From Phycisphaerae bacterium (GTDB lineage Bacteria > Planctomycetota > Phycisphaerae > Sedimentisphaerales > Anaerobacaceae), in contig JAAYBV010000035.1 in the NCBI GenBank assembly GCA_012744475.1, positions 1-44,048 on the forward strand: DNA of 44,048 bases, in the 5' to 3' direction. Made by a program: the position numbers and the translations under genes. Shown in pieces: positions 23,648-40,327 of this stretch; the first letter of the stretch is position 1, and every line of letters starts with the position of its first letter. The notes beneath the pieces are model-generated. The model was not told the origin of the DNA. It ran no database searches and saw nothing but the letters and a program-made list of their open reading frames with translations.

Positions 23648-25858
23648 TCAGCGGCTTTCAGACGAGGCAAAGCCGGGGGCGGACAGGCCTTCCTCGCAGA
23701 TGATGGGCCGCAGCCAGGCGGGAACGTCGGGGCGGGCATTGCTGTCGAGCCGGGCCTTCCACTCCTCGTCGGTCAGCCGCGTCTCGTCGACGAACTCGTA
23801 GTACGGCATGACGGCCCCTCGGCACAGCACGGCCTGCCCCTGCCAGGGATACAGCACGTAGATCGCCCGCGCCCGGCCGACGCCGACGTGCAGATTGCCG
23901 AGCAGCGGATTCGAATGGACGTCGGCAATCCGCGGCGCATCGTCCTTGGGATGCTTGGACGAGTAGTTGCCGTCGTAGCCCATGATTGCGGCGAGCGTAT
24001 CCCCATAGCCTCCGATGAAGTCATCGTAGTCTTCGCCGAGGTCACCGCCCGCAAGCTGTATTCGCGCAACAGACTCGAGACGGCGACTCGTCGTATCCAG
24101 CAAGGGCCACAGGCGGGCGACATCCGATTCATACATCCACGTAGTCGCGCCCAGCGACGGATCGACGATCCCCTCGCCCAAATCGTCTGCCATCGCGCGC
24201 AGCCAGGCCACCATCGTGGCCGTCCATTCTTCTTCGGGCACATCGTCGGAAGCCGGCCAATGCAGCATCACTCTGAGATGATTGAGCCGGAAGTGCTCAT
24301 CATCGGGAAGCTCCCACAACCTCTGATAGAACTCTTCCTTGGTCGCGGACCGATCGAGAAGATCGGCCAAGTCCATCAGGGCATCGATGAGGCTGAAGTA
24401 GCTGCTGTCGAATGCTCCGGCTGCCTCCAACAAGGCGCGCGTCCGCGCCGCCAGATCGGCCATGCGACGGAAGAACTCGGGCTCCGGCTCGACGAACCCG
24501 GCTGGGATTCTGCCTGTGCCGAAGGCGATGACATTGAGCTTGGCCTGGAGGACCCAGGTGTGGCGCAGTTGGGCCCAGCCAGCCAGGGCGGTGCCGCAGC
24601 TCTTGGCCTGCCAGGGTTCAGCGGTCATGAAGTCCGGCGCGTTGGGCTCGGGCGCATCGAGCAGCGTCGCGATCATGCGGAGATAATCGAAATAGAGGCT
24701 CGTGCCGGCATCGAACAGCCCCAGGTTCTCGTCGATCGTCGCGAGCACGTCGGCCTTCTGGACGCTGTCGAGCTTGTCGCGGGCGAACGTCGAGCCCAGC
24801 GCGATGCAGACCTCCAGGCCGTTTGGGAAGAACCGCCCAGGGAACTGGCGGATGTCGGTGGTCCGCTGGAACAACACGGCCTCGGGCAGCCGATAGGCCG
24901 AGAGGATCCGAAAGTTCGGTTCGGCGGCCGCGTTCGGGTCATCCGGAGGGAAGCGCAACTGGTCGTTGATCTGCGGCCCGTCCTCGGCCTGGGCGATCAG
25001 CTCAGCCCGCTTGGCGTCAAGATCGAAATCAAGTCCCTCGGTCACGACGCCACTGGCCGTGACAAGGTCCCAGTCGTCACCGACTCCCAGGAACTCGGTG
25101 TAGGTCCGAAAGAAGATGCGATGCGCCTCACAGCGAGCATCATTAGCTTCCGAGCCGTCGGACGCGAGGCAGCGACCCAGCATGAGGACCGACAACAGCT
25201 CGTCGTCGTGGCTGACGCGGAACGGAATCGACTGGAGCCAGGCCACCGCTCGGAAGTAGCGGGTCAGCCTCTCGCTCTCGGTGTAGAAGCCGCGAACCTT
25301 GTAGCGGCTGTAGTCGAGGTACATGAAATCTGGCTCGGGCGGCCCCAGCCAGTCGGGCTTCATGACCATCTGCGCCTCCACGATCCGGGCCACCTCATCG
25401 GAAATGATCGCCATCGTTCCGGCGTCCGTGATCTGGAAATCATCTTCGAGGAGCTTCAGGGCCGTGCCGAGGACGATTGTCGCCCGCCGTTTCGCGGCGG
25501 CAGTCAGTTCGCCCTGTTCACCGATACTGGCTGCGGCAGCGTCCAGGCGGCCCAGGATGAAACGCAGCACGGCGGGAAGCTTCTGCGCGTTGGCCTGTTC
25601 GAGCCGCAGAATCGACTCTTCATAGAGGACGTGGTAGCCGTTCAGCAGCGAATCGGACGTCACGAACAAGGGAGTCCCGGTGACCTTGTAGGCCTCAAAG
25701 ATCTGCTTGTGGGTCTCGTTGGCGATGAGTATCCGGTCCCGCTCAAGCTGCTGGGCGTCCGCGTCGGACAAGGCCCGTCCGACCGTCGGCAGCGATAGAA
25801 CAATGGCAAAGCAAGCGAATGCAGCTTTCGCACGCGGGCTGGAATTCAGCATGGTCAT
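23648..25858 (-). CDS. Secreted DUF3160-domain protein
   Basis: About 736 aa with a signal peptide (AFACFAIVLSLPTVGRA). The body matches the DUF3160 family layout: an early ANETHKQIFEAYKVTGTPLFVTSDSLLNGYHVLYEE (about 45-80), RLTRYFRAVAWLQSIPFR, and the C-terminal IADVHSNPLLGNLHVGVGRARAIYVLYP. It is a mostly helical extracytoplasmic protein of unknown biochemical role that recurs in Planctomycetota and Chloroflexota. Start is the ATG-ACC-ATG cluster with GGGAG eight bases upstream. A clear promoter precedes it, so it is a separate unit from the epimerase operon. Confidence 0.85.
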   Translation of the reverse strand: MTMLNSSPRAKAAFACFAIVLSLPTVGRALSDADAQQLERDRILIANETHKQIFEAYKVTGTPLFVTSDSLLNGYHVLYEESILRLEQANAQKLPAVLRFILGRLDAAAASIGEQGELTAAAKRRATIVLGTALKLLEDDFQITDAGTMAIISDEVARIVEAQMVMKPDWLGPPEPDFMYLDYSRYKVRGFYTESERLTRYFRAVAWLQSIPFRVSHDDELLSVLMLGRCLASDGSEANDARCEAHRIFFRTYTEFLGVGDDWDLVTASGVVTEGLDFDLDAKRAELIAQAEDGPQINDQLRFPPDDPNAAAEPNFRILSAYRLPEAVLFQRTTDIRQFPGRFFPNGLEVCIALGSTFARDKLDSVQKADVLATIDENLGLFDAGTSLYFDYLRMIATLLDAPEPNAPDFMTAEPWQAKSCGTALAGWAQLRHTWVLQAKLNVIAFGTGRIPAGFVEPEPEFFRRMADLAARTRALLEAAGAFDSSYFSLIDALMDLADLLDRSATKEEFYQRLWELPDDEHFRLNHLRVMLHWPASDDVPEEEWTATMVAWLRAMADDLGEGIVDPSLGATTWMYESDVARLWPLLDTTSRRLESVARIQLAGGDLGEDYDDFIGGYGDTLAAIMGYDGNYSSKHPKDDAPRIADVHSNPLLGNLHVGVGRARAIYVLYPWQGQAVLCRGAVMPYYEFVDETRLTDEEWKARLDSNARPDVPAWLRPIICEEGLSAPGFASSESR

Positions 25859-25900
25859 AGCGGCTCTCCCAAGCACGAACCTCCGTCAGTCACTCGGTTT

Positions 25901-26055: not shown

Positions 26056-27165
26056 TCACACCCTGCGCTCCGTGACGCCGAGGCCGGGGCCGGCGGGCAG
26101 GACCAGGCGGCCGTGACCGACGGTGACGCCGGCGAAGGGGTCGTCGGCGATCAGGAGGTTGCCATCGAGGTCGGCGTAGTCGATCAGCGGACTGAGGTGG
26201 GCGGCAGCAGTGATCGACACGGAGCTGGCGATCATGCAGCCCAACATGATCTTCAGGCCCAAGGCGCGGGCCACGTGGATCATCCGCAGGGCCTCTTGGA
26301 TTCCGCCGGATTTCATCAGCTTGATATTGATCCCGTCATAGGCTTGGGCAAGCTCGGGAATATCGGCGGCGCGCTTGACTGCCTCATCCGCGATGATCGG
26401 AATGTCCACGCGGTCGCGCAGCCAGGCGGTTTCTTCGAGCATTCCTGCAGGCATCGGCTGCTCGATCAGCTCGACGCCCAGGTCCTGGAGCCAGCGAATC
26501 CTGTCGAGCGCGGTTTGCCTGTCGCGCCAGCCTTCGTTGGCATCGACGCGAAGCGGACAGTTCGTGACATCGCGCACGGCGGCCAGGATTTCGGCATCGT
26601 TGTCGCGGCCGACCTTGATCTTGAGGACAGGAAACTCGGCGGCTTCCCGGACCTTCTGCCTCACGACGTCCGGCGTATCGATCCCGATCGAGAACGTCGT
26701 GACGGGCGTCTGGCTTCCGTCCAGGCCGAGCAACTGGTAGAGCGGCACGTTCAGCTTGCGGCCTACCCAATCGAGAACCGCCATGTCGAGCGCAGCGCCG
26801 GCGCACGTCTGGTCCTTCGTGAAGGTCTCCCATCGCCGGCGCAGATCGACGTACTCGAACCAGTCGCTCGATTCGAACAAGGGCCGGGCCTGCTCCAGAA
26901 CACCCATGGTCTTCTCGGCGCTCTCGCCGTAGCGGACGTTTGGCGCCGCCTCGCCCCAGCCAACCACGCCGTCCCGCTCGATCCGCACAAAGACGTTGTC
27001 CTTGTAGTCGCTCGAATTTCGCGCGATCGTCCAGGTGTGCTTCAGCGTCAGGCGCTTCACACTCAACGAGAATCGCGGCCGTTCGCCGGCGAGCAAGGGG
27101 CGCGCTGCCCCTGCCAGGCCTGCGGCGGCAAGTGTCTTCAACATGTCTCTGCGTGCGATCTTCAT
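26056..27165 (-). CDS. Tat-exported dipeptide epimerase-like enolase-superfamily protein
   Basis: 369 aa. The N-terminus MKIARRDMLKTLAAAGLAGA is a twin-arginine signal (R-R-D-M-L-K). The enolase-superfamily muconate-lactonising subgroup barrel has an intact active site: LKIKVG (K-x-K, about 195-199), RVDANEGW (Asp, about 222), LIEQPMP (Glu), IIADEAVK (Asp) and NIKLMKSGG (second-side Lys), ending with DLDG. That set is diagnostic of L-Ala-D/L-Glu-type dipeptide epimerases. Most are cytoplasmic and act in murein-peptide recycling; an exported version would act in the periplasm. It is the third gene of a tight operon (25-base gap) with two secreted glycan-type proteins. Start chosen for AAGGGA and for the Tat signal. 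Confidence 0.88.
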   Translation of the reverse strand: MKIARRDMLKTLAAAGLAGAARPLLAGERPRFSLSVKRLTLKHTWTIARNSSDYKDNVFVRIERDGVVGWGEAAPNVRYGESAEKTMGVLEQARPLFESSDWFEYVDLRRRWETFTKDQTCAGAALDMAVLDWVGRKLNVPLYQLLGLDGSQTPVTTFSIGIDTPDVVRQKVREAAEFPVLKIKVGRDNDAEILAAVRDVTNCPLRVDANEGWRDRQTALDRIRWLQDLGVELIEQPMPAGMLEETAWLRDRVDIPIIADEAVKRAADIPELAQAYDGINIKLMKSGGIQEALRMIHVARALGLKIMLGCMIASSVSITAAAHLSPLIDYADLDGNLLIADDPFAGVTVGHGRLVLPAGPGLGVTERRV

Positions 27166-27190
27166 TCCCTTGCCCTCAGCGATACACATG

Positions 27191-29388: not shown

Positions 29389-30858
29389 TCACTTGCCTGC
29401 CGGGAAAACGGGCCGCGCGACACCTTCCATGCCTTCGGGCTGCTCACCCACCTTGGCGATCAGGAAATGACGCCCTGTGGCCTCGCCGTCGTTGGCTTCG
29501 AACTGGAGAACGAAAACGCCGGGCTGGGAAAACGTCGCCTGCGTCTTCAGAGCGGCCGGCGCTGCGAGTTTCACAGCATCGGCCTGGCCCTGGATCAGCG
29601 ACCACGCGTATGTCAGCTTGCCCGAAGGTTTCCCGTCGTCCACGACCGAGCCGCTTAATGTCACGGTGCCGCCCTGCTCGGCGAGTTGGACGTCAGGTCC
29701 GGCGTATACGTCCGGCGGCTGATTCGGCGCGTTCGGGTCCCGCACGTCGAGACCGAACATGTTGCGATAACACACGTGTGCGATCTCGCCTTCTCGCGTC
29801 CGCTCGTCCGCGATCGCCAAGGCGGGTCGAAGTCCCTGCCCTGTCAGGCAGCTCTCGGCGAAGACGTTGTAGACACCGCCGCCTATCTCGCCCGCGATCG
29901 AGATGGCCGTCTCGGCGTTGAAAGTGCAATCGTGGACATAAATGTTGCGGCTCGGCCAGCCCATCTCGCGGCCCTCGCGCCCGGCGCCCGACTTGATGGA
30001 GACACACGCCCCGTGGTTGGCAATGGCCACGCCGTGAACCCGCACGTACTCGCAGGAATCGAGAACAATCCCATCGTTGTCGGGGTTGTGGGAGTCGATC
30101 CGGGTGTTACGGATCGTGACGTTCTTCGAGTAGATCGGATGCAGGCACCAGAACGGCGAATCGACGATCGTCACACCCTCCACCAGCACGTTCGTGCACC
30201 CGAGGAATCCGATCATGCTGGGCCGCAGGAAGTAGCCATCCCCCAGGAACCGGTCCACTACGGGCGTCCCCTCGTCGTTCCAGCGGCGCAGCGTCTCGAT
30301 GCCCTTGTCCTCCTTCCGGGCCCACGTGCTCCACGCATCCTTTGCCTGGCCGTCCAGAGTCCCGGTTCCGGTCAAGGCGACGTTCTTGCGACGATAGGCA
30401 TAAATGAACGGGCAGTAGTTGTAGATCTGCGTCCCTTCCCATCGCGTCAGGACCAGCGGCAGGTAGTCGTCGTACTTCGACCCGAACTTCAGGCGCGCCC
30501 CTTCGGCCAGATGCAGCTCCATGTCATTGACCAGATAGAGCGGACCGTTGACGAGGTAGGTGCCCGCCGGAACGATCACACGTCCTCCGCCCGCTTCCTC
30601 ACACGCGGCGATCGCCGCCATGATCGCAGGCCGGCAATCGGTTGTGCCATCGGCCACCGCCTCGAACTTCGTGATGTCGAAGTCGCGGCTCGGAATGTTC
30701 GGCTCGCCGATCTGCGCCAGGATGTCGGGCACCTGCGCCCACGAACCCGTATACTTCGATTCAGCGGCCGTCCCGCCCTTGCGGCACCCGCCGCCGACTG
30801 CAACAAGCGCCAGCGTGACAGCCACGGACACCAACGCTGTCCAGTATTTGTTTCTCAT
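29389..30858 (-). CDS. GH28-fold lipoprotein lacking catalytic residues, with PKD-like domain
   Basis: 489 aa. The lipobox VAVGGGC (Cys at about 25) marks a lipoprotein. The beta-helix is closely built like the GH28 protein at 20972 (DDYLPLVLTRWEG, YAYRRKNVALTGTGTLDGQAKDAW, SPFWCLHPIY). The catalytic set is gone: the Asp pair region reads NHGACVSIKSG instead of xGDDCxxIKSG, the GHG-His region reads NAETAISIAGE, and the RIK region reads ALAIADE. Only the NxDG aspartate (DNDGI) remains. A PKD/Ig-like domain (about 375-475; AGPDVQLAEQGGTVTLSG) is appended. It probably binds rather than cuts pectin-type chains (inference). First gene of the operon with the barrel protein and epimerase. Confidence 0.82.
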   Translation of the reverse strand: MRNKYWTALVSVAVTLALVAVGGGCRKGGTAAESKYTGSWAQVPDILAQIGEPNIPSRDFDITKFEAVADGTTDCRPAIMAAIAACEEAGGGRVIVPAGTYLVNGPLYLVNDMELHLAEGARLKFGSKYDDYLPLVLTRWEGTQIYNYCPFIYAYRRKNVALTGTGTLDGQAKDAWSTWARKEDKGIETLRRWNDEGTPVVDRFLGDGYFLRPSMIGFLGCTNVLVEGVTIVDSPFWCLHPIYSKNVTIRNTRIDSHNPDNDGIVLDSCEYVRVHGVAIANHGACVSIKSGAGREGREMGWPSRNIYVHDCTFNAETAISIAGEIGGGVYNVFAESCLTGQGLRPALAIADERTREGEIAHVCYRNMFGLDVRDPNAPNQPPDVYAGPDVQLAEQGGTVTLSGSVVDDGKPSGKLTYAWSLIQGQADAVKLAAPAALKTQATFSQPGVFVLQFEANDGEATGRHFLIAKVGEQPEGMEGVARPVFPAGK

Positions 30859-30978: not shown

Positions 30979-31007
30979 ATTATGCCCGTGCGCCGCACGC
31001 GTGGGAA
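30979..31007 (-). promoter_or_regulatory. Candidate promoter for lipoprotein operon
   Basis: Minus-strand TTCCCA (31002-31007), 17-base spacer, CATAAT (30979-30984). The implied leader is about 115 bases. Confidence 0.45.
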
Positions 31008-31038
31008 GCGTTTTATCGCATTTGCCCTTGAAGAACGC

Positions 31039-31068
31039 TTGCATTGGCCCGCATCGAACCGGTATCCT
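31039..31068 (+). promoter_or_regulatory. Candidate promoter for GH51 gene
   Basis: TTGCAT (31039-31044), 18-base spacer, TATCCT (31063-31068), about 58 bases before the ATG. Confidence 0.4.
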
Positions 31069-31126
31069 CGTGTCCCGACAAGAAGGTCTGATCCATCAAT
31101 GTCACTCATTTGAAAGGGACACAGCC

Positions 31127-33097
31127 ATGCAGCTCCCCATCCGTTTCCTCCTGCTAACGGGCCTGTGCCTGTTGACTATCCCGGCGGCGGGCGTCCGTGC
31201 ACAGGACGCGGCGCCGGCCTCCGCCACTGTCGAAGCCACGATCTCGATCGATGCGGCCGACAAGACCGAGCCAATCTCGCCGTATATCTATGGCCAGTTC
31301 ATCGAGCACCTGGGCCGCTGCATCTACGGCGGCATCTGGGCCGAGATGCTCGAAGACCGCAAGTTCTATTTCTCCGTGCCAGCCGAGGGCGACATCTGGC
31401 GACTGACCCGTGCTCAGGCCCGCGTGCTGGCGGCCTCCCCGTGGAAGGTGATCGGCCCGGAAGGCACGGTGAAGATGGTCAAGGAGGACGCCTTCGTGGG
31501 CGAGCACACGCCGCAGATCACCGCCCCCGGCGGCCGGCCCGTCGGCATCTATCAGGAAGAGCTGGGCCTCATCCAAGGCAAGAACTACACAGGCTACATC
31601 TACCTGGCCGGTGACGGCAAGGTCGGCCCTGTCGTGGTCAGCCTCATCTGGGGCGATGCCGAGTCCGACAAGGACACCGTCACGATCACGAAAGTGCGCG
31701 ACAAATACACCAAGAGCCCGCTGAAATTCACCGCGGGCAAGGGTACGGACAACGCCCGCCTGGAGATCACCATGTCGGGCGAGGGCACGCTCAAGATCGG
31801 CTGCGTCTCCCTGATGCCCGCCGACAACGTCGAGGGCTTCCGCAAGGACACGCTCGAATTGCTCCGGCAGCTCGACTCGCCGGTCTACCGCTGGCCCGGC
31901 GGCAACTTCGTCAGCGGCTACGACTGGCGCGACGGGCTGGGGGACCGCGACAGGCGGCCGACCCGCACCAATCCCGCCTGGACCGGCATCGAGACCAACG
32001 ACATGGGCATGGACGAGTTCATCCGGTTCTGCCGCCTGATCGACACCGAACCGATGATTGCGGTCAACACAGGCTTCGGCGACGCCTACTCGGCGGCCGC
32101 ACAGGTCGAATACGCCAACAGCTCGGCCGACACGCTCATGGGCAAGTGGCGGGCGAAGAACGGCCACCCCAAGCCGTACGGCGTCAAGTGGTGGTGCGTC
32201 GGGAACGAGATGTGGGGCAACTGGCAACTCGGATACATGTCGCTGAACCACTACGTCCTGAAGCACAACTGGATCGAGCAGAAGATGCGTGAGGTCGACC
32301 CGGCGATCAAGACCGTCGGTTCCGGCGACATCGGTCGCGACGGCCGCTGGTCGAGGGGCATGCTGACCAGTTGCGCCGACCACATGGACCTGCTCAGCGA
32401 GCACTTCTACTGCCGCGACAAGGAGGACATCCCCGAGCACGTCCAGCAGATCCCGGACCAAGTCAAGCGGATCGCGGACGCCCATCGTGAATACCGCAAG
32501 ACGATCCCCGCGCTGGAGGGCAAGGACATCCGGGTGGCGCTCGACGAGTGGAATTACTGGTATGGCCCGCACGTCTTCGGCGAGCTGGGCACGCGGTATT
32601 TTCTGAAGGACGCGCTGGGCATCGCGGCGGGACTCCACGAGTGCTTCCGCAACACGGACATCATCTACATGGCCAATTACGCCCAGACGGTCAACGTGAT
32701 CGGCTGCATCAAGACCACCAAGACCGCGGCCGATTTCGACTCGACGGGCCTGCCTCTGATGCTGTACCGCAAGCAGTTCGGAACCGTCCCGGTGGCGGTC
32801 AAGCACGAAGCGGCGCCGCTCGATGTCTCGGCGGCGCTGACCGCCGACGGCAAGGCGCTGACGGTGGGCATCGTGAACCCGACGCCGGACACGTACCGGC
32901 TCAGGCTGGAGTTGGATAACGTCGCTGCCGCCGGCGCCGCCCAGACCTGGATCATCGCAGGCGACGACCCGATGGCCTACAACCAGCCGGGCGAACCCCG
33001 CAACGTCGACATCGCCAGCACCGACCCCACCGACCTGACCGGCCCCATTGCCGTCAAGCCGCTGAGCATCACGCTGCTCCGCGCCCCCGTCAAGTAG
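31127..33097 (+). CDS. Secreted GH51 alpha-L-arabinofuranosidase
   Basis: 656 aa with signal peptide (FLLLTGLCLLTIPAAGVRAQ). The N-terminal part has the family start ISPYIYGQFIEHLGRCIYGGIW; an inserted carbohydrate-binding-like beta domain lies at about 80-235; the TIM barrel follows with YRWPGGNFVSGYDWRDG. The acid/base Glu is in WWCVGNEMWG (about 358) and the nucleophile Glu in RVALDEWNYWYG (about 473). A C-terminal beta-sandwich closes the protein. GH51 enzymes remove arabinofuranose side chains from arabinan, arabinoxylan and pectin. Single-gene unit with AAGGGA upstream and a strong terminator downstream. Divergent from the lipoprotein operon, so both may share regulation. Confidence 0.95.
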   Translation: MQLPIRFLLLTGLCLLTIPAAGVRAQDAAPASATVEATISIDAADKTEPISPYIYGQFIEHLGRCIYGGIWAEMLEDRKFYFSVPAEGDIWRLTRAQARVLAASPWKVIGPEGTVKMVKEDAFVGEHTPQITAPGGRPVGIYQEELGLIQGKNYTGYIYLAGDGKVGPVVVSLIWGDAESDKDTVTITKVRDKYTKSPLKFTAGKGTDNARLEITMSGEGTLKIGCVSLMPADNVEGFRKDTLELLRQLDSPVYRWPGGNFVSGYDWRDGLGDRDRRPTRTNPAWTGIETNDMGMDEFIRFCRLIDTEPMIAVNTGFGDAYSAAAQVEYANSSADTLMGKWRAKNGHPKPYGVKWWCVGNEMWGNWQLGYMSLNHYVLKHNWIEQKMREVDPAIKTVGSGDIGRDGRWSRGMLTSCADHMDLLSEHFYCRDKEDIPEHVQQIPDQVKRIADAHREYRKTIPALEGKDIRVALDEWNYWYGPHVFGELGTRYFLKDALGIAAGLHECFRNTDIIYMANYAQTVNVIGCIKTTKTAADFDSTGLPLMLYRKQFGTVPVAVKHEAAPLDVSAALTADGKALTVGIVNPTPDTYRLRLELDNVAAAGAAQTWIIAGDDPMAYNQPGEPRNVDIASTDPTDLTGPIAVKPLSITLLRAPVK

Positions 33098-37712: not shown

Positions 37713-40283
37713 CTACGGTGCAGTCACCGAGCCGCCTGTACCTGTGATGACGATGCGGCGGTAGCGAGTCAGCGGAGGCTCGCCACTATCGGTCACGACG
37801 AGAACGACATGGATCGTCTTGCCCAGCGCCTCGGCGGGCACGGCGAGGGAGCACGATGGGCCGCTGTCGGCGTCGATCACAATATCGCCCCCGAACGTGC
37901 CGGCCTCGGGATAGTACATCCATCGGTACGCCAGCCGGTCGCCGTCCGGGTCTGTACTGCCCTTGGCCGAGAGCGAGACGCTCGACCCGGCCGGCGCCTC
38001 CAGAAACACGATGTCCCCGGTCGCATCCCCCTGCACGCACGGCACCGGTTCGTGATTCGCCTCGCCATAAGTCCGGGCGACGCACCAATCCGCGCGGGCC
38101 CGAAAGTCATTCTGGATGTGAATCGCCCACTTCTTGAGCGTGTTGTCTCGATGGGTGGTCCCCTGCCACGCGTCCTGCCGGTCGCACCACCACATATTCA
38201 GGTCCCGATTCAGGCCGTATCGCCCCGACCAGCCACCCCAGGCCGGTCTCTCCGGCACGTTCAGGCCATTGGGGATCAGGTGCATGAACGTCGGCGTATC
38301 TCCCTCCTTCTGGATCGTGTATTCGGCGCAGAGCGGCCCGTGCCCGGTCTTGATGTCCCGATCCACCGCGAAGCCGCCGGCGCGCTCGGTCAATGGGCGC
38401 CAGCGATGGTACCAGCGCCCCCCGTCCATGTCCGGGTAGAAGGTATCCATGTAGCATCCCAGCGCCGAACGGTGCCGGCCGAGATGGTTCTGGTTGTGCG
38501 CTTCGACATAACGGAGCGTCCCGGCGAATCGCTCATACTCTCCATCACTTCTCGTTGCTTTTACGTGATCCAGGGCCTCGCGCAACGCCGTAGGTTTGTC
38601 GTCCTCCTCATTCGTACCCCAGTTGAGATACCAGATCGGCCTCGGATCGTCCCGGTCGACCAGAGCGATGACGTGGTCCCGCCCTTCCTGGTCGGCGTAA
38701 CACTGCTTCGTGATACGACGCAACGCATCCGGCTCAGGATAATCGGCCTTGTGCACCTTGAGATTCGCGTAGACGCGTTCGTAACCATCCACGTACTGGA
38801 GGATGCGGTCCTTGCCCGAGATGCCCAGGCGGCTCTGGCCGGGCCCTCGCGTGCCGATCAGACCTTCGACGTCCCATTCGTTGAGGTACAGGAAGAACCG
38901 CACGAGCGAGCCTTCATCGTCGGGGTCGCCTCCCGGCGCATCGGTCTCGATAACGACGCGTAATCTGCCCGAACGCTGGGGTTCTCGTTCGGTCATATCG
39001 TGCAGGTTCCACCGCGATGGGTCAAATACCGAGCGCGTCGGCTTGACTCGCGGATATCCACCCACCTCCTGCTCGCTGTCGATGATCCGGCCCTGGCCGG
39101 CACGGGCCTCGCGGATGATGCGGCAGTCCACCTCATCCCGATCCCATGGGCGCGCGCCGGCGTTGGCCAGCACACGGTCCCTGACCTCTGCCGCCGGCAA
39201 CGCCACCAGCTCCGGAGGCCAGAACGGCCGAGCATCCAGAACCCGGCATTCACCAGGCGCGGCCCGGCTGTCGATCTCCAGCAGCGGGACGTCGTCAGCC
39301 TGGCCGATCGCCAGATTATCCGCCAGATAGACTTCGCATGGGCCGCCTCGCTGGTGACGCAGCACGGACATGGGCCGGCGCGTGGAAGGCCCTGGCTCCA
39401 GGACGTTGCCCACCACGACCATCTGCCCGGTCGAGTACGGACGCTCGCCCCACTCGGAGGGCACCAGCGCGTAGTGCACGGCCCGGCCACCCGGATTGTA
39501 GATGTAGTTGTTCACGACCGCGCCTCGCGCGCCGCCCTTGAACAGCGGATTGCGATCTCGATTGTGCGCGTACAGATTGCCGACGATGGCGATGTCGGTG
39601 CAGTTGTCGTGGATCAGCGTGCCCTTCGAGTGCTCGCCTTTGCCATGCGCCGATTGGCTCAGTCCTTCGGCGATGATGCAGTTGCTGAAGGTGATCTTCC
39701 GCGAGGTGCCGCAGCGCCACTGTTCGACGTCGTCCCCGTCGAAGCGCGGGCCCGAGGCGCTGAGGTTCTCATCGGTCGCCCACGAGCAGGAGCACTGATC
39801 GACAATGACGTTATAGGCATCGGGACCCGAGGTAGCGATCGCATCGATCTCCCATCCGCTCTTTTTGGGCCTTCCGGCCTCGCCCGGACGCACGCGAACG
39901 TGTTGGAGGATCACATCGTGCGTGTGGATCCCGATGCCGCCGCGAACGAAGGTGATGCCCGGACTCGGCGCCGTTTGTCCGGCAATGGTCACGAAGGGTT
40001 CGTCGATGCCGATCGATTTGCCGTCCAGATCGATCACGCCGCCGACCTCGAAGACGATGATCCTCGGCCCCTTGGCGCCCACGGCCCGGGCAAAGGACCC
40101 GGGGCCATCGGCGTTGAGGTTCGTCACTCGAATGACGCGCCCGCCTCGTCCGCCGGGCGTACAGGCGGCCCATCCCACCGCATCAGGGAAGGCCTTGCAT
40201 GGCAGAGGCTCTGCCTCGCAGACGGCATGACTCATCAGGACAGCAATCCAGACGCAGAGAACGATCAGGCCCTTTCTTTTCAC
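37713..40283 (-). CDS. Secreted pectate lyase-like / Sde182 (DUF1593) fusion protein
   Basis: 856 aa with signal peptide (LIVLCVWIAVLMSHAVCEA). The N-terminal half (about 25-430) is a beta-helix pectate lyase of the planctomycete PL1 type: FPDAVGWAACTPGGRGGRVIRVTNL, FEVGGVIDL, ITIAGQTAPSPG-like segment, DQCSCSWATDENLS, HNRDRNPLFKGG. From about 443 the nucleoside-hydrolase-like Sde182/DUF1593 domain begins (IETDAPGGDPDDEGSLVRFF), running through GRWYHRWRPLTERAGG, with a C-terminal beta domain (SVSLSAKGSTDPDGDRLAYRW). These two modules are normally separate proteins. GTG start chosen because GAGGAGG lies just upstream; an ATG eight codons earlier overlaps that site. 44 bases after the DUF1080 gene. 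Confidence 0.85.
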   Translation of the reverse strand: MKRKGLIVLCVWIAVLMSHAVCEAEPLPCKAFPDAVGWAACTPGGRGGRVIRVTNLNADGPGSFARAVGAKGPRIIVFEVGGVIDLDGKSIGIDEPFVTIAGQTAPSPGITFVRGGIGIHTHDVILQHVRVRPGEAGRPKKSGWEIDAIATSGPDAYNVIVDQCSCSWATDENLSASGPRFDGDDVEQWRCGTSRKITFSNCIIAEGLSQSAHGKGEHSKGTLIHDNCTDIAIVGNLYAHNRDRNPLFKGGARGAVVNNYIYNPGGRAVHYALVPSEWGERPYSTGQMVVVGNVLEPGPSTRRPMSVLRHQRGGPCEVYLADNLAIGQADDVPLLEIDSRAAPGECRVLDARPFWPPELVALPAAEVRDRVLANAGARPWDRDEVDCRIIREARAGQGRIIDSEQEVGGYPRVKPTRSVFDPSRWNLHDMTEREPQRSGRLRVVIETDAPGGDPDDEGSLVRFFLYLNEWDVEGLIGTRGPGQSRLGISGKDRILQYVDGYERVYANLKVHKADYPEPDALRRITKQCYADQEGRDHVIALVDRDDPRPIWYLNWGTNEEDDKPTALREALDHVKATRSDGEYERFAGTLRYVEAHNQNHLGRHRSALGCYMDTFYPDMDGGRWYHRWRPLTERAGGFAVDRDIKTGHGPLCAEYTIQKEGDTPTFMHLIPNGLNVPERPAWGGWSGRYGLNRDLNMWWCDRQDAWQGTTHRDNTLKKWAIHIQNDFRARADWCVARTYGEANHEPVPCVQGDATGDIVFLEAPAGSSVSLSAKGSTDPDGDRLAYRWMYYPEAGTFGGDIVIDADSGPSCSLAVPAEALGKTIHVVLVVTDSGEPPLTRYRRIVITGTGGSVTAP

Positions 40284-40327
40284 GGCTCGGCCTCCTCTTG
40301 AAGCCATCCTGCGACGGCAGGAATCCG

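Follow-up and report, generated by a model that had tools for sequence, protein, structure and literature searches.

A PKD lipoprotein derived from GH28 without the catalytic Asp pair: a candidate pseudoenzyme of Phycisphaerae

What does an enzyme fold do once the residues that made it an enzyme have been replaced? The question is raised by P0001, a protein encoded in a 44,048-nucleotide stretch of DNA from a Phycisphaerae bacterium (contig JAAYBV010000035.1), referred to here as the window. The original prediction, made from the letters of the window, described P0001 as a lipoprotein of the GH28 fold that had lost every catalytic residue, that lay beside an intact GH28 enzyme, and that had been recruited as a surface glycan-binding protein, a possible analogue of SusD. 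Our preferred reading differs in part. We give a probability of roughly 0.5 to P0001 being a pseudoenzyme that would act as a surface-anchored, non-catalytic binder or scaffold for an arabinan/pectin locus, by way of the N-terminal part of its helix. P0001, its parts and the surrounding genes are listed in Table 1.

Table 1. Positions of P0001, its parts and the genes around it in the window
Feature	Position	Strand	Remark
Intact GH28 protein P0002	20972..22570	-	Comparison protein, not a close paralogue
DUF3160 protein	23648..25876	-	Same orientation as P0001
Enolase-superfamily (MR/MLE) protein	26056..27189	-	
733-aa protein gene, next downstream of P0001	27191..29392	-	No family match
GH28-derived PKD lipoprotein gene P0001	29389..30858	-	489 aa; stop included in coordinates
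PKD-like domain, residues 386-459	29482..29703	-	Profile match
Approximate deletion point, ~residues 369-371	29746..29754	-	Asp-bearing orthologues have ~90 extra helix residues
Former catalytic helix part, residues 251-366	29761..30108	-	D262 kept; G283/A284; A348/A350
N-terminal beta-helix part, residues 55-250	30109..30696	-	Highest constraint in the genus
Signal peptide and lipobox, residues 1-25	30784..30858	-	Cys25 (VGGGC, then RK); pattern match
GH51-like alpha-L-arabinofuranosidase	31001..33097	+	Divergently transcribed from P0001

P0001 and what is left of its catalytic site

The open reading frame, its coordinates and its strand are as originally predicted, and homology places the product in GH28. 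The Pfam model Glyco_hydro_28 (PF00295) matches with an E value of 2e-12 (47.3 bits, cut-off 22.9). The nearest PDB relatives found with phmmer are 3jur (E 7e-71), the exopolygalacturonase of T. maritima, and 5olp (E 4.3e-58), a galacturonidase that we take to be from B. thetaiotaomicron. Foldseek, given a model of P0001, also ranks 3jur first (E 2.4e-14). This AlphaFold2 model was built from a two-sequence input, has a mean pLDDT of 52.5 and was used only as confirmation of the helix; in ten-residue blocks over residues 61-290 its pLDDT is 68-89, except at residues 131-150 and 171-210, where it is 34-44. The beta-helix of GH28 type extends from residue 55 to about residue 366. The NCBIfam BT4155 family gives 228 bits, which is under that family's cut-off of 800, and the PKD-like domain scores 27.4 bits against a cut-off of 27, barely above it. 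By pattern match, the N-terminus satisfies what we take to be the lipobox rule. The pattern occurs in seven of the eight members of the subfamily described below, in keeping with a surface-anchored protein, but it is common elsewhere (6/13 other GH28 rows tested) and is therefore no special mark of P0001. The lipoprotein signal is a sequence pattern, and P0001 would presumably be located at the surface.

The alignment agrees with the substitutions first described. GDDC, the Asp pair of motif II, is replaced by NHGAC (G283/A284), the column of the motif III His (316) holds Glu, and RIK of motif IV is AIA at the aligned place, with A348 and A350 for Arg and Lys. Motif I (NPDNDG) retains its Asp, D262, so that not every catalytic residue has gone, as had been claimed; this column is Asp in all six pair-less rows of the alignment (the five genus members and G038, see below) and in all 36 rows that bear the pair. 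P0001 is a member of GH28 by homology which, of the residues of an active enzyme, has the motif I Asp and has neither the Asp pair, the His nor RIK. An idle catalytic site would not need D262, and its invariance speaks against our reading.

According to PMC6102391, rhamno-PGs lack motif III, and the His is absent from the motif III column in 15 of the 36 Asp-bearing rows; its loss alone is thus not decisive. The Asp pair is absent in five of the five genus members that carry the gene, which favours a pseudoenzyme and confirms that the substitutions are conserved among these orthologues, as the original prediction had proposed to check. An annotation or sequencing error was ruled out as the cause, since five genomes agree. 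This genome has seven GH28 genes (eight match rows, since one gene accounts for two), and P0001 is the only one without the pair, which the other six possess. From its motifs, P0001 is predicted not to hydrolyse glycans.

The comparison protein P0002 is intact, as had been stated, with NTDG, GDDC, GHG and RIK all present. It does not lie beside P0001, from which it is separated by about 7 kb, and it is 34% identical to P0001 over the full-length alignment and 39% over the best segment. We considered P0001 as a recent duplicate of P0002 and rejected this, because P0002 falls off the eight-row side of the 100/100 branch that defines the subfamily; the tree is drawn rooted on P0002, and this branch is independent of the root.

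Orthologues and the order of losses

Orthologues were searched for with P0001 in 161 genomes of the order and 89 of the family. At an E value of 1e-96, eight of the 161 genomes hold a subfamily member: that of the window and four more from its genus (G005, G004, G001 and G002), G018, and two genomes that share one other genus, G107 and G038. G003, of the window's genus and with a genome that is about 80% complete, gave a weak match alone (E 2.3e-10). Searches with P0003 as the query in 397 genomes of the class (E 1e-105) and 392 of the phylum (E 1e-118) yielded no further member, and the other matches of the class search were in genomes whose proteins sit in other groups of the GH28 tree. Scanning genome contigs with P0001 gave a single locus, in a Bacteroidota MAG, which matched residues 379-460 (the PKD part), and a scan of viral contigs found no relative. 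The eight members form one clade with support of 100/100 in a tree from which L002, L003, L004, L006 and L007 were left out. A tail of the form GEQPxGMEGVxRPxF (29389-29448, minus strand) follows the PKD-like domain in the copies of the window, G005, G004 and G001; it is absent in G018, G107 and G038, and the region is masked in G002.

Two of the orthologues, those of G018 and G107, carry NNDG and DDDC and keep all three Asp, with Tyr at the place of the His, Tyr or Asn at that of the Arg, and Lys still present in RIK. It follows that the Asp pair was lost in particular lineages, and a catalytic loss ancestral to all orthologues is ruled out. Orthologues with the Asp pair and the His had been named in advance as evidence against the original prediction; the pair is indeed retained in these two, and the His is not. 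A sister clade of 11 GH28 proteins (ten of 725-806 aa and one of 489 aa) likewise has no motif III His and keeps the pair; it joins the subfamily with support of 94/81, or 100/99 in a smaller tree set. Since the Asp-bearing orthologues and this His-less clade show it, the His and the Arg were replaced earlier than the Asp pair, and the staged loss on the tree is a further point in favour of our reading. The sister clade comprises L023, L028, L031, L033, L038, L040, L041, L055, L056, L060 and L062; its members have SDDC for the Asp pair and LYCKS at RIK, and the ten long ones have a further C-terminal stretch.

The lipobox and the PKD-like domain of P0001 are present as predicted, but they were not gained with the catalytic loss. 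The PKD part is found by alignment in G018, G107 and G038, and the lipobox pattern in G107 and G038, so that Asp-bearing orthologues already have both (G107) or the PKD part (G018). Another change went unnoticed in the original prediction. The distance from the GE(V/I)xH motif to the start of the PKD part is 117 residues in both G018 and G107 and 109 residues in G038; in the five members of the window's genus it is 27, 27, 27, 27 and 22; about 90 residues of the C-terminal helix have therefore been removed in this genus only.

The pair-less copy of G038 is paired with the Asp-bearing copy of G107 in the best tree (support 58/89), and the AU test does not reject one loss common to all pair-less copies (p 0.46). 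The loss in G038 may be a second, independent one; the evidence leans towards two losses, because an SDR gene (69-77% identical) neighbours the copies of G018, G107 and G038 alike. The G038 copy (L022) has a long branch (0.59-0.63), and W237 and G170 of the shared scaffold are also changed in it.

The same rows differ at column 260 of motif I, which is Asn in 35 and Ser in one of the 36 pair-bearing rows, is acidic in none of them, and is acidic in all six pair-less rows (Asp in five, Glu in G038). Together with the invariant D262, this could mean that the acidic pair has moved to motif I (D260 with D262) and that a re-wired enzyme cleaves another substrate. We regard this as quite unlikely, given that at most two evolutionary events lie behind the six rows, that R292 and the RIK Lys are missing, and that evolution of the catalytic half is rapid for a region holding an active site. 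Very unlikely, in our estimate, is a variant in which two lineages each lost the Asp pair and acidified the motif I Asn, so that the acid pair would have moved by one coil to give either a re-wired enzyme or an acid-dependent metal or sugar site.

Selection and constraint along the helix

Within the genus, the dN/dS of the P0001 gene is 0.165-0.277 over 10 pairs, about 0.2 (NG86; comparisons with G002, in which most of the PKD part is masked, use about 400 codons). Values for the neighbouring MR/MLE and arabinofuranosidase genes are 0.131-0.221 and 0.133-0.244, respectively (NG86, 6 pairs each). As predicted, selection is maintaining a protein that lacks the GH28 catalytic set, and with catalytic Asp lost under purifying selection P0001 qualifies as a GH28 pseudoenzyme. 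A decaying gene without function could explain why catalytic residues and part of the helix have been lost and why the match in G003 is so weak, but the frame is open, dN/dS across five genomes is like that of the neighbouring enzymes, and the N-terminal half is 83-85% identical to G005, G004 and G001 and 68% identical to G002. The gene is thus not decaying by this measure, and we hold decay to be highly improbable.

In the genus it is now the N-terminal half of the helix, and no longer the old catalytic half, that is the more constrained. The Asp-bearing copies of G018 and G107 are identical at 104/116 positions (90%) of residues 251-366 and at 153/196 (78%) of residues 55-250, whereas the window and G005 are identical at 78/116 and 167/196. 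The interaction has a z of -4.27 (p 2e-5) for the window against G005 and of -2.68 (p 0.007) for the window against G002, with sites treated as independent. Against G005, G004 and G001, the catalytic half of P0001 is 65-67% identical and the N-terminal half 83-85%. Among 260 Asp-bearing pairs of 60-97% identity, a comparison in which pairs share branches and are not independent and from which L011 and P0002 were left out, conservation of the catalytic half exceeds that of the N-terminal half by an average of 9.5 points. The difference is -16 to -19 points for the window against G005, G004 and G001, and none of the 260 pairs is as low; for the other seven pairs within the genus it is -6 to -13 points, with one to eight of the 260 as low. 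This reversal argues for our reading, but the catalytic half is also the less conserved one in 37 of the 260 Asp-bearing pairs, and the window against G002 is less striking, with eight pairs as low. The eight lowest Asp-bearing pairs all lie inside the His-less sister clade. Constraint on the N-terminal half could also reflect folding or protein contacts and not glycan binding.

For the former substrate cleft, we took the 103 columns within residues 55-372 whose conservation among 33 pair-bearing rows (L011 left out) is at least 90%. The five genus members keep 43/64 of these columns up to residue 250 and 12/39 after it; G018 and G107 together keep 49/64 and 26/39. The original prediction that the substrate-side segments are kept is thus not confirmed. 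Eleven of the conserved columns are basic. R93, R139 and R250 are kept in all six pair-less rows, and K81 in G038 only among them. R292 and K350, which are present in 36/36 pair-bearing rows, are kept in G018 and G107 and lost in 6/6 pair-less rows, in line with a pseudoenzyme. K289 survives in four of the six and R355 in one, and the window has both; R309 and R330 are already changed in G018 and G107, and R298 is Glu or Lys there. P0001 has lost five of the seven conserved basic columns after residue 250. According to PMC6102391, motif IV is thought to contact substrate carboxylates. With these basic residues of the catalytic half lost, binding of galacturonan in the ancestral cleft is unlikely, and other ligands could still be bound there.

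This bears directly on the role first proposed for P0001, that of a glycan binder at the cell surface whose old GH28 cleft would hold homogalacturonan or rhamnogalacturonan, in analogy with SusD. The GH28 fold and the lipobox are consistent with it, as are the PelZ-like pectate lyase and GH28 genes of the window and a genome without SusD families: PF07980 and PF14322 gave no match in this genome, with a Bacteroides control positive, which for this genome agrees with the original prediction. No SusD model matched P0001, which was matched by GH28 and PKD models, and the one TonB-type barrel match of the genome is on contig C85, not the window's contig. We nevertheless consider binding through the old cleft unlikely. 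The half that holds the cleft is less conserved than the N-terminal half in the window against G005, G004 and G001, five of its seven conserved basic residues are lost in P0001, and the helix is partly deleted. In addition, the beetle and weevil GH28 pseudoenzymes that were tested bind no pectin, as reported in PMC8213348, which also weighs against our own reading.

Neighbourhood, role and known systems

The arabinofuranosidase gene adjoins the P0001 gene in all five genus members that carry the latter, which is in favour of our reading. An MR/MLE gene lies near the P0001 copy in four of the five, with none in the stretch taken from G002. A DUF3160 gene occurs in three, being whole in the window and G005 and in pieces in G001; none was seen in G002 or in about 1.6 kb to the left of the MR/MLE gene in G004. 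These members of the immediate operon are not specific to pectin, which counts against our reading. There is a 4-base overlap between the 733-aa gene, at its GTG, and P0001, at its TGA. Its product had no significant match in Pfam, NCBIfam or PDB and, by eye, has a signal-like N-terminus. Its counterparts by position in G004 and G001 are 29-30% identical, compared with about 70-85% for neighbouring genes, and there is none in the G005 and G002 stretches beside the P0001 copies. The window also carries a TRAP transporter (DctP, DctQ and DctM). At 37713-40307 on the minus strand, one protein combines a PelZ-like pectate lyase part (residues 36-425, under the family cut-off) with the nucleoside-hydrolase-like and C-terminal domains of Sde182. 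The arabinofuranosidase has an insert of about 155 residues; 3ug3 matches it in two segments, with chain residues 16-59 on residues 72-115 and chain residues 62-499 on residues 273-693.

PKD domains often mediate contacts. P0001 might have a protein-protein role, serving secreted neighbours such as the arabinofuranosidase or the 733-aa protein as their lipoprotein anchor, as an assembly factor or as a regulator. The constant arabinofuranosidase neighbour agrees with such a role, and because the helix has been shortened, its new end may be exposed. The arabinofuranosidase is encoded on the opposite strand, however, and no counterpart of the 733-aa gene turned up next to the P0001 orthologues of G005 and G002; we regard the proposal as unlikely. 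In our preferred reading, that of a non-catalytic binder or scaffold, P0001 descends from exo-galacturonidase-like GH28 proteins that no longer had the motif III His or the RIK Arg. On the way to the window's genus, the fully conserved Arg of column 292, the RIK Lys and both Asp of the pair disappeared, and a deletion took some 90 residues from the C-terminal helix. The resulting protein, presumably at the surface, may act through its N-terminal helix half, with a possible contribution from the PKD domain, and not through the ancestral galacturonan cleft.

P0001 and its close relatives suggest that a GH28 frame now serves another role. Among the eight orthologues, Asp-bearing proteins of full length and shortened, pair-less lipoproteins mark the two ends of a short series, with both states in related genomes, and they allow testing of what a carbohydrate-enzyme fold does after catalysis is lost. 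CAZyme surveys that tally GH28 in genomes of this kind can be counting some proteins with little likelihood of cutting pectin.

Among the closest known systems are the exo-type GH28 galacturonidases (3jur, 5olp and the BT4155 family). P0001 resembles them in fold and in its N-terminal half, but lacks their Asp pair, His, RIK and C-terminal coils and differs further in its PKD-like domain and its lipoprotein-type signal. Its orthologues in G018 and G107 share the PKD part and the His-less motif III, and that of G107 the lipobox pattern as well; unlike P0001, they have three Asp, the Lys of RIK, a full-length helix and an SDR gene, not an arabinofuranosidase gene, as neighbour. SusD and other surface glycan-binding proteins of Bacteroidota are non-catalytic lipoproteins found near glycan-degrading genes. 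P0001 is like them in its lipoprotein type and in the glycan-degrading genes nearby, as read from sequence, and unlike SusD in having no homology to it. The GH28 pseudoenzymes of leaf beetles and weevils, presumably without lipobox and PKD domain, are a further close system. According to PMC6549527 and PMC8213348, they have substituted catalytic residues, are under strong purifying selection and are tied to the digestion of pectin; they are eukaryotic proteins secreted into the gut lumen, and GH28-3 is without one of the three catalytic Asp. Knockdown of inactive beetle GH28 proteins had greater effects than that of active ones, as reported in PMC6549527. A limited search of open-licence literature found no description of a bacterial GH28 pseudoenzyme. 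GH28 pseudoenzymes are already known in beetles, and what looks new here is a bacterial lipoprotein version with a staged loss of its catalytic residues.
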